Positions 30,745 through 36,623 of a stretch of DNA of 46,515 nt are shown in pieces (within the stretch, counting starts at the first letter, position 1; the number at the start of each line of letters is the position of its first letter). The translations under genes and the position numbers were made by a program. The notes beneath the pieces were generated by a model. The model saw only the letters and a program-made list of their open reading frames with translations, was not told the origin of the DNA and did not search any database. The stretch comes from Actinotalea endophytica (GTDB lineage Bacteria; Actinomycetota; Actinomycetes; Actinomycetales; Cellulomonadaceae): NCBI RefSeq assembly GCF_025717005.1, contig NZ_JAOVZU010000011.1, forward strand, positions 70,826 through 117,340. Reading direction: 5' to 3'.

Positions 30745-31728
30745 TCAGCCGTCGATGCCGGGGAGCGCCGGCACCGCGCCGGTGAGGCTCGTCGCGGTGG
30801 TCGCGGCGCTCTGCGCCGAGGCGTACAGCTCCGCGCGCGACCCGGGGGAGGCCCGGCCGAGCAGGTCGACCCAGACCGCGGTGAGGTCGGTCTCGAGCTC
30901 GGCGGCCGCGGCGAGCCGGTCGGCCTCGCTCGCGCCGGGGTCGGCCACGGCATCGGGCAGGTCGTACGAGGCGTCGCGCGGGTCGTCGGCCGTGCCCGCC
31001 ACCCCGGCGGCCTCGGCCCAGGCCTCGGCGCGCGCCCGGTGGGCCACCGCGAGGTCGACGGCCTCCTGACGCGCCTGGTCGCGGCTCCGGGCTGCGACGA
31101 CCTCCCAGACCAGGCCGAGCGCGTCCTCGGAGACGATCGCCGGGCCGAGGGCGCTCGCCGACAGGCCCGCGGGGATGGTCGTGGGTTGCGCCGTCACGGC
31201 GTCGGTCGTCGTGCTCTCGGGGGTCGAGCCCTCGGGCGTGCCGAGGGCGGTGAGCAGCGCCGCGCCGGCCAACGTGCGGTTGAGGGCGATCCCGGCGACG
31301 AGCCGCGCGAGGCGCCCGTCGGTGGTGGTGAGCGCATCGGTCCGGGCCGAGTCGGCCTGGTCTGCGAGCAGCGCGACGATCTGCTCCGGGTCGACCGGCC
31401 CGGGCTCCGTGGTCGGGCCGGTCGAGGTGTCGGGCTCGGGCGTGGCTGACGGGAACGGGACCCAGACCCCGCCGAGGGCGTCGAGCTGGGTCTCGGCGGC
31501 GTCGGCGACGTCCGCGAGGACCGCGTCGACCTCCGGCTCGCCGGAGGGCACCAGCGCGAGCTCGTCGAGCAGCACGGTCGTCGCAAGCGCCTGGCGCTGG
31601 CGGACCTGCTCGACCTCGTCGGCGGCTGGGGTGGTCGGCGGCGGGGACTCGACGCGCAGCGCCGCGCAGCCGCCGAGCAGGGCGGCCGCGAGGAGCACCG
31701 CCGAGGCTCGGACGTGGCTCGTTCTCAT
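30745..31728 (-). CDS. Lipoprotein with ferritin-like DUF4439 domain
   Basis: From ATG 31728 (AGGAT nine bases upstream) the 327-residue protein has a lipoprotein signal ASAVLLAAALLGGCAAL with lipobox Cys at about 23. A helical part and Thr/Pro-rich linkers (about 95-115 and 165-180) follow, then a C-terminal all-helical domain (about 185-327) like the DUF4439 ferritin-like domain of Rv2844, which also neighbours proS and rimP. Metal binding and function are unproven. It is divergent from rimP, with about 97 bases between starts. Confidence 0.82.
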   Translation of the reverse strand: MRTSHVRASAVLLAAALLGGCAALRVESPPPTTPAADEVEQVRQRQALATTVLLDELALVPSGEPEVDAVLADVADAAETQLDALGGVWVPFPSATPEPDTSTGPTTEPGPVDPEQIVALLADQADSARTDALTTTDGRLARLVAGIALNRTLAGAALLTALGTPEGSTPESTTTDAVTAQPTTIPAGLSASALGPAIVSEDALGLVWEVVAARSRDQARQEAVDLAVAHRARAEAWAEAAGVAGTADDPRDASYDLPDAVADPGASEADRLAAAAELETDLTAVWVDLLGRASPGSRAELYASAQSAATTATSLTGAVPALPGIDG

Positions 31729-31759
31729 CGGCGCGATCCTGCCATGCGTCCGGACTCGA

Positions 31760-31765
31760 TACCCT
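31760..31765 (+). promoter_or_regulatory. Candidate -10 of the rimP-nusA-infB operon
   Basis: TACCCT, identical to the box before ffh, about 60 bases before the rimP start and giving a leader that includes the ribosome binding site CAGGAGG. No clear -35. Confidence 0.4.
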
Positions 31766-31825
31766 GTGCTCGACAAGTCCACAGGGTCCGTCACCCAGCC
31801 GGCCCGCCACGATCAGGAGGCGACG

Positions 31826-32308
31826 ATGGCGAACGACACCTCGCCGGCGCAGCGCCTACGTGCGGTCGTCGAGCCGTCGGTCGCAGCCGAGGGCCTGTAC
31901 CTCGAGGACGTGGTCGTCACCCGTGCGGGTCGACGCTCCGTCGTCCGGGTCGTGGTGGACCTCGCGGACGGGCCCGGCGGTGTCGGCTCGGACCGGCTCG
32001 CCGACGTGTCGCGCGCGGTGTCGGCGGCGCTGGACGCGGCGGACCCGGTCGCCGGCGAGTACCTCCTCGAGGTCTCGACCCCGGGGACCGACCGCCCGCT
32101 GACCGAGCCGCGGCACTTCCGCCGCGCGGTCCGCAGGCTGGTGCGCCTGACCCTGCGGGACGGCTCGACGCGGTCCGGCCGGCTTGTCGACGCAGGTGAG
32201 GAGCTGGTGCTCGAGGCCGACGGCCGCCGTAGCACGGTGCCCGCCCAGGACGTGGTTCGCGGCAAGGTCGAGGTCGAGCTGACCCGCGACGAGGAGGGTG
32301 AGGTCTGA
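31826..32308 (+). CDS. rimP: Ribosome maturation factor RimP
   Basis: 30S assembly factor required for 16S maturation. 160 residues: N-terminal alpha/beta domain ([48 protein letters not shown] in two stretches), the highly conserved [24 protein letters not shown], and a C-terminal SH3-like barrel. ATG start with AGGAGG nearby. Its stop overlaps the nusA start by one base (TGATG), the standard rimP-nusA pair. Confidence 0.96.
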
Positions 32309-33381
32309 TGGACATCGACATGACGGCGCTGCGACTGGTCGAGCACGACCGGGGGATCAGCCTGGACACGCTGGTGGGTGCGATCGAGCAGGCGCTGCTC
32401 TCCGCCTACCACCGGACCCCAGGTGCGTACCCCGACGCTCGCGTCGAGGTGGACCGGCGTTCCGGGCACGTCACGGTGTGGGCGCGTGAGCGGCTCGCCC
32501 CCGCCGAACCGGCTCCCGACGAGCCCGAGGACGGCGCGGTCGTGACACCGCCGCCGCCGACGTTCTCCGAGGAGTTCGAGCACACTCCCGAGGGCTTCGG
32601 GCGCGTCGCCACGGCGACCGCGCGCCAGGTGATCGTGCAGCGGCTGCGCGACGTCGAGGACGAGCAGGTGCTCGGCACGTTCAAGGGCGCCGAGGGCGAG
32701 CTGCTCGCGGGTGTCGTGCAGCAGGGACGCGACCCGCGCACCGTGCTGGTCGACGTGCGGGGCACCGAGGCGGTCCTGCCGCACCACGAGCAGGTGCCGA
32801 CCGAGACGTATGCGCACGGCGAGCGGCTGCGCGCCTACGTGCTGGACGTGTCCCGGGGGCCGAAGGGGCCGTCGATCACGCTCTCGCGCACGCACCCCGG
32901 GCTGGTCCGCAAGCTGTTCGAGCTCGAGGTCCCGGAGGTCGCGGACGGGTCGGTCGAGATCACCGCGATCGCCCGCGAGGCCGGTCATCGCTCCAAGATC
33001 GCGGTGCGCTCGACGGTGCCCGGCCTGAACGCGAAGGGCGCCTGCATCGGCCCGATGGGGGCACGCGTCCGGGCGGTGATGACCGATTTGCACGGCGAGA
33101 AGATCGACATCGTCGACCACAGCGACGACCCCGCGACCTTCGTCGGCAACGCGCTGTCGCCGGCGCGGGTGAGCTCGGTGACCGTGGTGGACGCCGCAGC
33201 GCGGTCGGCGCGCGTCGTGGTGCCCGACTACCAGCTCTCCCTCGCCATCGGCAAGGAGGGGCAGAACGCCCGGCTCGCGGCGAAGCTCACCGGCTGGCGC
33301 ATCGACATCCGTTCGGACGAGGAACCGGGTGCCGGCGGCCCGCAGACCACGCCGTCGGAGGCGCCGGGTCACGCTCCGTGA
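32308..33381 (+). CDS. nusA: Transcription termination/antitermination protein NusA
   Basis: Binds RNA polymerase and nascent RNA, affecting pausing, termination and antitermination. 357 residues: N-terminal domain ([18 protein letters not shown]), S1 domain (about 127-195), KH1 with [15 protein letters not shown] and KH2 with [18 protein letters not shown]. There are no C-terminal acidic repeats, as in other actinobacteria. The stop overlaps ylxR by four bases. Confidence 0.97.
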
Positions 33382-33755
33382 CGAGGAGCGCTAGAATCGA
33401 CGACGCTGGGCCGCGGGCCCGGCTCCCCGAGAGCGTGGGCGACGGCACTGCCGCCGCGGGTCGTGCTGCGGCCCTCACCGGATCCGACGGACCGGTGCGC
33501 ACGTGCGTGGGGTGCCGGAAACGTGGTCCACGCTCCGCCCTGGTCCGTGTGGTCCGGGTCGAGCGGGACGGTTCAGACCGTGCCGAGGTCGACCCGGGGC
33601 GCTCCCGGCCCGGACGGGGAGCCTGGTTGCACCCCGATCAGCACTGCCTCGAGCTCGCCGAACGGCGTCGGGCACTGCCTCGCGCGTTGCGCGTCGCATC
33701 GCTCGACGTCACCGACGTGCGGCGGGCGTTCGGCGTGGACCGGGCACGGACATGA
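33378..33755 (+). CDS. ylxR: YlxR family nucleic-acid-binding protein
   Basis: Small basic protein always found between nusA and infB; RNA binding and regulatory roles are proposed for the family. 125 residues with the YlxR core [21 protein letters not shown] (about 39-59) and [18 protein letters not shown]. The GTG at 33378 overlaps the nusA stop and is assumed; the first 38 residues are low-complexity and not part of the family core, so a later start is possible. A TAGAAT box lies just inside the gene. The stop TGA overlaps an ATG (ATGA) that begins the first of the short ORFs before infB. Confidence 0.88.
33392..33397 (+). promoter_or_regulatory. Candidate internal promoter -10 ahead of infB
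   Basis: TAGAAT, the closest match to the canonical -10 in this window, lies 14 bases inside the called ylxR start. It could serve ylxR from a later start or give infB extra transcription. No -35 is evident. Confidence 0.3.
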
Positions 33756-33834
33756 GTGGTTCACCGACATGGGAAAGCGGGTTGGAAGCCGATGGGCACC
33801 CGATGAGCACCTCGCGATGAGCACCCAGCACTAA
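33752..33834 (+). promoter_or_regulatory. Chain of ATGA-coupled short ORFs upstream of infB
   Basis: ATG 33752 overlaps the ylxR stop (ATGA) and opens a 22-codon ORF ending TGA 33818-33820. ATG 33792 opens a four-codon ORF (MGTR) ending at 33806; its TGA overlaps ATG 33803 (ATGA), which is in frame with the 22-codon ORF (ending MSTSR). That stop in turn overlaps ATG 33817 (ATGA), which gives MSTQH and TAA 33832-33834. ATG 33769, in the MSTQH frame, would give 21 codons. The motif ATGRGCACC stands at 33792, 33803 and 33817, once in each frame. The architecture is seen directly; function as reinitiation control of infB is inference. Confidence 0.6.
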
Positions 33835-33847
33835 CCACGGTCCACCC

Positions 33848-33872
33848 CCTGTCCGGGGCGGACCAGGACAGG
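33848..33872 (+). promoter_or_regulatory. Hairpin covering the infB ribosome binding site
   Basis: CCTGTCC (33848-33854) pairs with GGACAGG (33866-33872). The right arm abuts and partly includes GGAGAG, the infB Shine-Dalgarno region. It could limit infB initiation unless opened by ribosomes terminating on the short ORFs 14 bases upstream. Confidence 0.5.
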
Positions 33873-33878
33873 AGAGTT

Positions 33879-36623
33879 GTGGCAAAGGTCCGCGTCTACG
33901 AGCTCGCCAAGGAGCTCGGCGTCGAGAGCAAGGCCCTGATGGCCAAGCTCAACGAGCTCGGCGAGTTCGTTCGTTCGGCGTCCTCGACGATCGAACCCCC
34001 GGTCGTGCGCAAGCTGCGCGATCTGTACCCCGCTGCGCCGGCAGCTCCGGCGCCGGCCCCGAAGGCCGCTCCGGCCGTCAAGCCGGCCCCGGCCCCCAAG
34101 CCCGTTCCCGAGCCGAAGCCCGAGCCGGCTGCCGAGCAGCCGACCCCGGCGCCGGCCGAGCAGCCGGCCCCGGCCGAGCCGCCGGCTGCGGCGCCGGCCG
34201 AGTCGGCGCGCCCGGTGCCGAGCGCCCCGGCCCCGGCCGCCGGTCCACGTCCTGGTGGTCCGCGTCCCGGTGCCCCGCGCCCGGGCAACAACCCGTTCGC
34301 GCCGAGCCAGGGCATGCCCCGGCAGGGTGGTCCGCGTCCTGGTGGTCCGCGTCCCGGTGCCCCGCGCCCGGGCAACAACCCGTTCGCGCCGAGCCAGGGC
34401 ATGCCCCGGCCCGGCGGCAGCGGCGGTGGCGGCGACCGGCCCGGTGGTCCGCGTCCGGGCGCGCCCCGGCCCGGTGGTCCGCGTCCGAACCCCGGCATGA
34501 TGCCCGGCCGTACCTCGGTCGGCCGTCCCGGTGCCGGTGGCGGTGCCGGTGGCGGGCGTGGCGGCGGTCCCGGTGGTGGCCGCGGTGGCGGCCCCGGTGG
34601 CGGCCAGGGTGCCGGTGGCGGCGGCTTCCGCGGAGGTCCCGGTGGCGGTGGCGGCCGTGGTGGCCGTGGCGCCGGCCGTGGCAGCACGCAGGGTGCCTTC
34701 GGGCGCGCCGGTGGCAAGCCGGTCCGTGGGCGCAAGTCCAAGCGCGCGAAGCGCCAGGAGTTCGAGCAGATGCAGGCGCCGTCGCTCGGCGGCGTCCAGG
34801 TGCCTCGCGGCGACGGCACCACTGTGGTGCGTCTGCGCCACGGCTCGTCGCTGAACGACTTCGCGGACAAGATCGATGCGAACCCCGCCAGCCTGGTGAC
34901 CGTGCTGTTCCACCTCGGTGAGATGGCCACGGCCACCCAGTCGCTGGACGAGGACACGTTCGGCACCCTCGGGGCCGAGCTCGGCTACCGCATCGAGATG
35001 GTCTCCGCGGAGGAGGAGGACCGCGAGCTGCTCGAGTCGTTCGACATCGACCTCGAGGCCGAGGAGGCCGCCGAGGACGACGAGGACCTCGCTCCGCGTC
35101 CGCCGGTCGTGACGGTCATGGGTCACGTCGACCACGGCAAGACCAAGCTCCTCGACGCGATCCGTTCGGCGGACGTCGTCGCGGGTGAGGCCGGCGGCAT
35201 CACCCAGCACATCGGTGCGTACCAGGTGCACGCCGAGCACGAGGGCATCGACCGCCCGATCACCTTCATCGACACCCCGGGTCACGAGGCGTTCACCGCC
35301 ATGCGTGCCCGTGGTGCCCAGGTGACCGACATCGCGATCCTGGTGGTCGCGGCGGACGACGGCGTGATGCCGCAGACGGTCGAGGCGCTGAACCACGCGC
35401 AGGCGGCCGGCGTCCCGATCGTGGTCGCCGTCAACAAGGTGGACAAGGAGGGGGCGAACCCCGCCAAGATCCGCCAGCAGCTGACCGAGTACAACCTGGT
35501 GGCCGAGGAGTACGGCGGCGACACGATGTTCGTCGACATCTCCGCGCTCAAGCGGGTCGGCATCGACGAGCTGCTCGACGCGGTGCTCCTGACCGCCGAC
35601 GCGGCGCTCGACCTGCGGGCCAACCCGGACAAGGACGCGCGCGGTGTCGCGGTCGAGGCGAACCTCGACAAGGGCCGCGGTGCGGTCGCGACCGTGCTGG
35701 TCCAGTCGGGCACGCTGCACGTCGGTGACGCGATCGTGGCGGGCACCGCCTACGGGCGCGTGCGGGCGATGTTCGACGAGCACGGCGACACCGTCGCCGA
35801 GGCCTCGCCGGCCCGGCCCGTCCAGGTGCTCGGCCTGACCTCGGTGCCGCGTGCGGGTGACACCTTCCTGGTGGCACCCGACGACCGGACCGCGCGCCAG
35901 ATCGCCGAGAAGCGTGAGGCCGCGGAGCGGGCCGCGCTGCTGGCCAAGCGTCGCAAGCGGATCAGCCTCGAGGACTTCACCCAGGCTCTGCAGCAGGGCA
36001 AGGTCGAGACCCTCAACCTGGTCCTCAAGGGCGACGTCTCGGGTGCTGTCGAGGCCCTCGAGGACGCGCTGCTCAAGATCGACGTGGGGGAGGAGGTCGC
36101 CCTGCGGGTCATCCACCGAGGTGTCGGTGCGATCACGCAGAACGACGTCAACCTCGCGACGGTCGACAACGCGATCATCCTCGGGTTCAACGTCAAGTAC
36201 GCCGAGCGGGTCGAGGAGCTCGCCGAGCGCGAGGGCGTCGACGTGCGGTTCTACTCGGTCATCTACCAGGCGATCGAGGACGTCGAGGCTGCGCTCAAGG
36301 GCATGCTCAAGCCGGAGTACGAGGAGGTGCAGCTCGGTACCGCCGAGGTGCGCGAGATCTTCCGCTCGTCGAAGGCCGGCAACATCGCGGGCTCCCTGGT
36401 GCGTTCGGGGATCATCCGGCGCAACGCCAAGGCGCGGGTGCTGCGCGGTGGCACGGTCATCGCGGAGAACCTGTCGATCGAGTCGCTCAAGCGGTTCAAG
36501 GACGATGCGACCGAGGTCCGCGAGGGCTACGAGTGCGGCATCGGCCTGGGGTCGTCGTACAACGACATCCAGATCGACGACGTGGTCGAGACCTACGAGA
36601 TGCGGGAGAAGCCGCGCTCGTGA
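33879..36623 (+). CDS. infB: Translation initiation factor IF-2
   Basis: GTPase bringing fMet-tRNA to the 30S subunit. 914 residues: N-terminal IF2N motif ([22 protein letters not shown]), a Pro/Ala linker, a Gly/Pro/Arg-rich low-complexity part (about 120-275) holding an 87-base tandem duplication, a second IF2N, then the G domain with [14 protein letters not shown] (about 417-430), DTPGHEAFT and [10 protein letters not shown], and C-terminal barrels ending [15 protein letters not shown] at 33879 with GGAGAG just upstream. The preceding short-ORF chain and hairpin, and the following competing stems, suggest layered control. Confidence 0.97.
34248..34421 (+). repeat. 87-base tandem duplication in infB
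   Basis: Two copies, 34248-34334 and 34335-34421, essentially identical over about the first 77 bases of each and diverging at the end. Each encodes 29 residues including [15 protein letters not shown]. It lies in the unstructured IF2 linker and keeps frame. Confidence 0.88.

Follow-up and report, generated by a model that had tools for sequence, protein, structure and literature searches.

The gene for translation initiation factor IF2 (infB) in Actinotalea endophytica is preceded by a run of very short open reading frames (ORFs) whose stop and start codons overlap. The question raised by this locus is whether these mini-ORFs are translated parts of a regulatory device and, if so, how such a device would act on infB. 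The whole stretch of DNA that was analysed, here called the window, is 46,515 nt long (contig NZ_JAOVZU010000011.1, positions 70,826 to 117,340 of the forward strand). Pfam matches identify the neighbourhood as rimP, nusA, ylxR, and infB, and the best named infB matches of the window locus are from Actinotalea and Cellulomonas.

Features of the ylxR-infB interval

Coordinates are those of the window, and all features are on the plus strand.

33378..33755, +, ylxR (Pfam YlxR, E 3.9e-20); its TGA stop (33753-33755) overlaps ATG 33752
33752..33820, +, 22-codon ORF starting within the ylxR stop overlap (ATG 33752), read directly from the sequence; shares TGA 33818-33820 with mini-ORF2
33772..33785, +, conserved GGAAGCNGGT-type box, 7-20 nt 5' of mini-ORF1, a probable weak Shine-Dalgarno (alignment and anti-Shine-Dalgarno duplex energy)
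33792..33806, +, mini-ORF1, MGTR and stop (ORF coordinates re-read)
33803..33820, +, mini-ORF2, MSTSR and stop; ATGA overlap with mini-ORF1
33817..33834, +, mini-ORF3, MSTQH and TAA stop, then C; ATGA overlap with mini-ORF2
33839..33843, +, strand A (GGTCC), 5' arm of a hairpin, beginning 4 nt past the last mini-ORF stop (A:B pair counts)
33848..33854, +, loop segment CCTGTCC, which pairs with the Shine-Dalgarno GGACAGG in the A-masked fold, the predicted closed form of the window
33858..33864, +, strand B (GCGGACC), complementary to both A and C
33866..33874, +, infB Shine-Dalgarno GGACAGGAG (sequence and fold)
33879..36623, +, infB (gene for IF2), with a GTG start; Pfam matches to the IF-2, IF2_N, and GTPase domains
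33887..33893, +, strand C (GGTCCGC), infB codons 3-5, complementary to B and covarying with it at codon 5 (synonymous third base)

An initial annotation of this DNA had described mini-ORFs joined by ATGA overlaps between ylxR and infB, a motif (ATGRGCACC) present once per frame, and the termination of every frame within 30 nt. Re-reading confirmed the coordinates and overlaps of MGTR, MSTSR, and MSTQH in three frames, the three motif copies at 33792, 33803, and 33817, and the closure of all three frames within 30 nt in the window. The 22-codon ORF had been counted into the same chain. It is indeed opened by the overlap of the ylxR stop with ATG 33752, and its position suggests that ribosomes leaving ylxR could also reach the chain through it. 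It is not a fourth link, since it has the same frame as MSTSR and ends at the same TGA, and it represents instead a second entry into link 2. The GTG start of infB at 33879 is 44 nt past the last mini-ORF stop of the window. GTG is the infB start in 212 of 213 loci, the remaining one (L232) being anchored off its start. The probable actuator, an RNA switch that begins 4 nt after the last stop and extends into infB codons 3-6, was absent from the initial annotation.

Conservation of the chain in Actinomycetes

A chain was defined as at least three ORFs of 2-12 codons joined by stop-start overlaps in the last 130 nt before infB. The 133 infB upstream regions sampled represent 37 family codes of Actinomycetes. 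Chains of at least three links are present in 130 of them, and in 0.75% of dinucleotide shuffles of the same 130-nt regions. The mini-ORF chain is confirmed as real and is far from chance. An impression had been recorded beforehand that similar runs precede infB in other actinobacteria, and for this class it proved right. The 133 regions are composed of 25 class loci, 28 new loci, and 80 of 103 further matches listed, the 23 skipped being mostly near-duplicates of sampled families. The sample was drawn among the matches listed; the divergent family f83 lies outside it and is seen only through R1, a covariance model of the element. The exceptions among the 133 are L017, whose third ORF runs past 12 codons without ending, and the two loci L074 and L099, in which the third start is 2 nt past the stop. 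In the other classes of the phylum, a chain of three was found in 0 of 25 infB upstream regions.

Named loci, which include Streptomyces and Cellulomonas, have the chain in 75 of 80 cases. The misses are two Arthrobacter loci and those of Sinomonas, Pseudarthrobacter, and Pseudoglutamicibacter. When these five were searched in a 200-nt window with ORFs of up to 30 codons, the number of named loci with at least three links rose to 79 of 80. Sinomonas has two links in this wider search, and a third when its start may lie up to 2 nt past the stop. The last ORF in the two Arthrobacter loci, Pseudarthrobacter, and Sinomonas has 23-24 codons and ends 42 nt before infB, and in three of these four its start is 2 nt past the preceding stop. 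The peptide of this long last ORF is partly conserved in the Arthrobacter-like loci L246, L200, L226, L241, and L203 (MTTLLRSAMG...ARSKK or VRSKK; in Sinomonas, MITLLRTAKG...CSKQ), and the ORF is perhaps a nascent-chain sensor. Four Cellulomonas loci (L163, L164, L169, and L171) have four mini-ORFs, of which the first is MAAR or MATR, a pattern suggestive of the duplication of a link.

Conservation within the chain was calculated for 58 Streptomyces-type loci picked by family or name, which replaced a set of 61 loci that had been picked by the chain motif and was biased for the chain. Mean column identity is 0.987 in the chain, 0.958 in infB codons 8-20, and 0.79 upstream.

Phase, start codons, and Shine-Dalgarno sequences of the links

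The peptides differ widely among loci (MSTR, MSTR, MSTPMK; MSTP, VKSR, MTMRHS; METK, VNGSK, MRPVRD) and the joints are kept. The initial annotation had proposed an alignment that would score both the overlaps and the MST codons; the overlaps and reading frames are retained well beyond close relatives, an outcome favorable to the initial reading, and the peptides vary. No codon run that would mark an amino-acid leader peptide is shared by MSTR, MSTP, METK, and MRPVRD. The 410 junctions in 205 full-chain loci consist of 379 ATGA, 16 GTGA, 12 TGATG, and 3 TAATG, in a tally made by a chain finder that admits only such overlaps. The unbiased test of phase is the ATGA-to-ATGA spacing, which is independent of ORF calls. 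This spacing is 2 mod 3 in 220 of 250 intervals, or 98 of 112 when each distinct segment is counted once. The upstream control contains two such ATGA intervals only. Starts that have been lost are replaced in frame. In f88 the first ATG is replaced by a GTG that follows GAAGGAG, and in f93 by an ATG 6 nt upstream.

Duplex energies with the anti-Shine-Dalgarno were calculated for 130 loci using an assumed 16S tail sequence. The means are -5.2 kcal/mol for ORF1, -2.5 for ORF2, -1.9 for ORF3, -8.7 for infB, and -3.7 for the control. Duplexes of -4 kcal/mol or better occur in 78% of these loci for link 1, 12% for link 2, 0% for link 3, and 38% for the control. Since links 2 and 3 are mostly without a Shine-Dalgarno, they should start mainly by reinitiation. 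The overlapping or adjacent stop and start codons are those of a putative termination-reinitiation coupling, and the chain has the form of translatable leader ORFs upstream of a presumably regulated gene. The reading of the run as a termination-reinitiation chain, put forward in the initial annotation, gains support at the sequence level from class-wide conservation, phase, in-frame replacement of starts, and the mostly Shine-Dalgarno-less links 2 and 3.

High-GC genomes usually prefer TGA stops, and a C after the stop is a slow termination context. Of 207 loci, 190 end the last mini-ORF with TAA or TAG, and 163 have C as the next base. This context may slow termination, and it would then lengthen the masking of downstream RNA by the ribosome.

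Predicted alternative pairing of three RNA strands

Strand A (GGTCC) starts 4 nt past the last stop in 113 of 165 loci, with a range of -1 to 6, and is expected to lie within the footprint of a ribosome at that stop, for which we assumed a commonly accepted size. A pairs with strand B (GGACC) in a hairpin adjoining the Shine-Dalgarno. B is alternatively complementary to strand C, which is formed by infB codons 3-6 (G GTC CGN GT). In a MAFFT alignment of 38 sequences, standard pairs make up 80.3% of A:B, compared with at most 57.9% in slid versions, and 83.0% of B:C, compared with at most 50.0%. None of 500 shuffles reaches A:B or B:C in percentage paired and covariation score. For B:C, two of five measures, namely pairs changed on both sides (2) and further pair types, are not above the shuffles. 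For A:B, further pair types are not above the shuffles, and slid versions equal the real one in two-sided pairs.

The third base of codon 5, which is synonymous, forms a standard pair with its partner in B in 168 of 172 loci, after 41 of 213 had been dropped for lack of the core. The pair types are GC (127), CG (27), GU (10), UG (2), and AU (2). Pairing between this B base and A is seen in only 109 of 173 loci, a count for which A may be wrongly anchored in some rows (as in L200). B matches its own C better than the C of other families (8.88 vs 8.40 of 10 pairs, p 1.7e-5, 30 families), and A:B pairing is likewise better within than between families (6.97 vs 6.66 of 8, p 0.001). Real infB starts form 7.2 B:C pairs, compared with 4.95 in synonymously recoded ones (163 leaders). 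The Val4 codon, for which 204 of 213 loci were usable, many of them Streptomyces, is GTC in 164 of 174 and GTT in 10, with GTG and GTA in 0. In L119, Leu4-Arg5 are encoded by CTC AGG, and B is altered to CCCTGAGC in match.

On a tree built from 134 IF2 proteins, the codon-5 base must have changed at least 7 times and the B base at least 10 times; the two bases pair in 106 of 108 rows. A tree-based test of independent pairs for codon 5 and B gave 1.5 pairs changing the same way and 0 the other, too few pairs for significance. Two mutually exclusive pairings, A:B and B:C, which share B and one of which is predicted to close the infB initiation region, are found in 173 strict-core loci. As features of sequence, both the mini-ORF architecture and the covariation are established.

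Predicted effect of ribosome masking

A ribosome at the last stop was modeled by leaving out the first 10 nt past that stop, and the cost of opening positions -13 to +15 of infB was calculated. The ON state was approximated by folding from -14 on. This opening cost of the whole initiation footprint was used as the closing measure because the unpaired fraction of the Shine-Dalgarno and start does not fall on masking (0.574 free vs 0.596 masked, 163 leaders). The mean opening cost of 165 leaders is 9.0 kcal/mol in the ON state, 11.8 in the free leader, and 17.3 when masked. The masked rise over ON is 8.3 kcal/mol, compared with 3.3 when the A-B regions are shuffled (165 leaders), and 93% of the 165 distinct leaders show a rise over ON of more than 3 kcal/mol. 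In f79, f81, f87, and f88, the opening cost is much the same for the free and the masked leader, and f91 is contrary in that its masked cost is below ON. Many free minimum-energy folds are the closed form (for example L004, L005, L012, and L118). Because free leaders often fold closed, the open state would need A:B to have formed before C is transcribed.

The strict B:C core is absent in 40 of 213 loci. In the window, B:C is possible over 7 bp, yet the masked fold pairs CCTGTCC with the Shine-Dalgarno GGACAGG (B:C 0.06 pairs), and the unpaired fraction of the Shine-Dalgarno and start goes from 0.46 to 0.24 on masking. Masked folds of f5, f7, f8, and L023 have similar Shine-Dalgarno pairing. 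In a set of 36 loci that lack the strict core, the Shine-Dalgarno has a mean unpaired fraction of 0.61 in the ON state, 0.49 free, and 0.48 masked, with a fall of more than 0.2 from ON in 14 of the 36. The Shine-Dalgarno is closed with or without A in most f7 loci and changes little in f5. Closing of the Shine-Dalgarno as a substitute switch in families without B:C fits single masked folds; it is weak as a switch in f5, f7, and f8 and was rejected in this general form. Family f80 (L135 and L136) has the chain and neither the hairpin nor B. Its last stop is 20-21 nt before the infB start, and a terminating ribosome would sit near the Shine-Dalgarno itself.

Proposed regulation of infB and alternatives

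The aligned loci themselves show the chain and its phase, Shine-Dalgarno sequences that are weak or missing at links 2 and 3, the potential of B to pair with A or with C, and the covariation. Chain and hairpin together look like a built-in gauge of the capacity to start protein synthesis. With modest confidence, we consider it probable that the element is a translational attenuator that measures reinitiation and places IF2 synthesis under negative feedback. For this attenuator we infer translation of the links, masking of A by the ribosome, an OFF sign of that masking, and IF2 or initiation capacity as the signal sensed.

Ribosomes would enter at mini-ORF1 by way of its weak Shine-Dalgarno and terminate at the ATGA overlap, and two reinitiations, mostly without a Shine-Dalgarno, would be needed to reach the stop of mini-ORF3. 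When IF2 or initiator tRNA is scarce, few ribosomes would get through, A:B would form during transcription, and the infB start would be open. At high initiation capacity, a ribosome at the last stop would cover A and leave B free. Free B would then pair with infB codons 3-6 and close infB; in the window and some families the Shine-Dalgarno itself would be paired instead.

Reinitiation in E. coli is reported to increase with overproduced IF2 and to decrease with IF3 (PMC2268962, in excerpt). Reinitiation without a Shine-Dalgarno is described as inefficient in the same text and in PMC12548453 (both in excerpt). The suggestion in the initial annotation that the chain senses initiation capacity or IF2 would draw on this E. 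coli work (PMC2268962, in excerpt) and on its extension to the present loci. A broader proposal is more tentative and falls somewhat short of probable: that the element is a class-wide bacterial counter of successive termination-reinitiation events, which acts through a three-strand RNA switch made partly of infB codons to give IF2 feedback, and which would be the counterpart in logic of GCN4 and a sensor of IF2 or initiation capacity. If true, this would provide a natural readout of initiation capacity, would explain the codon choice at the infB start, and would mean that mini-ORF chains far below annotation cut-offs can be conserved regulatory parts. The element is class-wide and short enough for a reporter test.

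The strongest alternative, in our estimate unlikely, is positive coupling. Ribosomes that pass mini-ORF3 would scan on, open the hairpin, and start infB, with the chain serving as a conveyor and B:C barring other ribosomes. Delivery of ribosomes by short ORFs has been proposed in general (PMC12548453, in the portion available). The f80 loci, with their last stop so close to infB and no hairpin, would suit delivery, as would the overlap of the ylxR stop with the entry ORF in the window. The many closed free leaders also favor it, since infB would depend there on delivered ribosomes. Outside f80, however, the last stop of full-chain loci is 33-66 nt from infB with the hairpin between them. The Shine-Dalgarno of infB is moreover the strongest of the region (-8.7 kcal/mol), and A:B, which would open infB without a ribosome, is conserved. 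The poor Shine-Dalgarno switch in loci without the core, together with f80 and its lack of a hairpin, lowered our estimates for the attenuator and for the broader proposal and raised that for positive coupling.

It is improbable that the ATGA repeats act untranslated, as an RNA binding site for a protein such as IF2 or NusA. High conservation of the CGATGAGC unit in the 58 Streptomyces-type loci (0.987 vs 0.79 upstream) would fit such a motif, but the spacing varies (5 to 35 nt by link) with the coding phase kept, start codons shift in frame, and the overlaps persist through wide changes of motif and peptide (METK, VNGSK, MRPVRD). A stop trap in all frames whose sole role is to bar stray ylxR ribosomes from infB is scarcely credible, since such a trap, suited as it is to three frames all closed within 30 nt in the window, needs stops only and leaves the conserved starts, the overlaps, the Shine-Dalgarno-like box, and an RNA arm covarying with infB codons unexplained. 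The RNA-motif and stop-trap readings were both set low because of the reading phase, the moving start codons, and the covariation.

Relation to known systems

The trp leader and ermC type are ribosome-mediated attenuators with alternative hairpins. As in these systems, a ribosome on a leader ORF would here pick between two exclusive pairings, one of which closes the downstream gene. Unlike in trp and ermC, the ribosome position would depend on two successive reinitiations and not on charged tRNA or a drug, and the peptides are unconserved. In eukaryotic GCN4 and ATF4, reinitiation on short upstream ORFs (uORFs) senses the supply of initiation factor and initiator tRNA. The present element resembles these in that several short ORFs and reinitiation would report this supply to one gene. 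It differs in being bacterial, in using stop-start overlaps in place of scanning distance, in having an RNA switch as its output, and in that the controlled gene itself encodes an initiation factor. The AUU start of infC is an example of IF3-dependent control. There, too, an initiation factor affects expression through its own initiation role, but by start-codon discrimination at a single site, with no reinitiation chain. The GTC start of Streptomyces sigR is likewise under IF3-dependent control (PMC5472188, in excerpt).

Gene pairs coupled by ATGA (PMC12548453 and PMC6728339, each in the part available) have the same stop-start overlap as the mini-ORFs. Those pairs join two genes; here the chain has at least three members, mostly of 3-7 codons, and a hairpin follows the last of them. 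For the E. coli nusA-infB operon, autoregulation is reported in a title cited by PMC2965389, which also names ermC; operon and feedback are shared with the present case, and E. coli is outside the class. The element is undescribed in the open-access full-text literature searched and in Rfam. A scan of window positions 31500-34500 with Rfam 15 gave two matches, both below the gathering score. No sensor of reinitiation in bacteria is reported in the open-access literature searched. Attenuators with alternative pairings and reinitiation-based uORFs are known; as far as we found, their combination in a mini-ORF chain feeding back on an initiation factor is new.

Distribution of the element in genomes

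R1 has one strong match in the genome of the window (E 2.9e-33), and seven others have E values from 0.07 up. Matches are present in 282 of 296 class genomes, in 260 of the 267 of good quality, and in 111 of 115 genera, mostly one per genome. A separate scan found matches in all 26 genomes classed as that of the window itself, as of the same order, or as of the same class. The 14 misses in the class are two of the three f80 genomes (G323 and G338) and otherwise fragmented or incomplete assemblies. Outside the class, weak matches occur in 14 of 270 genomes (E 8.8e-5 to 0.0094), of which three were checked against the sequence. Two of these, L247 and L248, have no such chains before infB on reading; the third, in G183, lies on the infB start itself, and the corresponding upstream region (L149) is without a chain.

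The second site that a first search pattern gave in the genome of the window (L033) was rejected as an in-frame coding repeat with an ATG spacing of 12. A looser pattern of three ATGA had 13 matches in this genome; in 11 of the 13 all spacings are divisible by 3, and in 0 are both 2 mod 3. The three-ATGA pattern is blind to the chain of the window itself, in which the first start is ATGG.

The coding repeat of L033 (1480-1570) consists of three ATGAGCACCGAC units close to where another gene of this genome ends, and it is unrelated to the element. Two other repeats are of note. A locus from outside the class, L248, has ATGAGCAACC three times in frame (MSNPMSNPMSNQ) at a possible gene start, possibly as alternative starts. 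The IF2 linker encoded in the window at about 34250-34410 contains a direct repeat of 23 protein letters, present twice.
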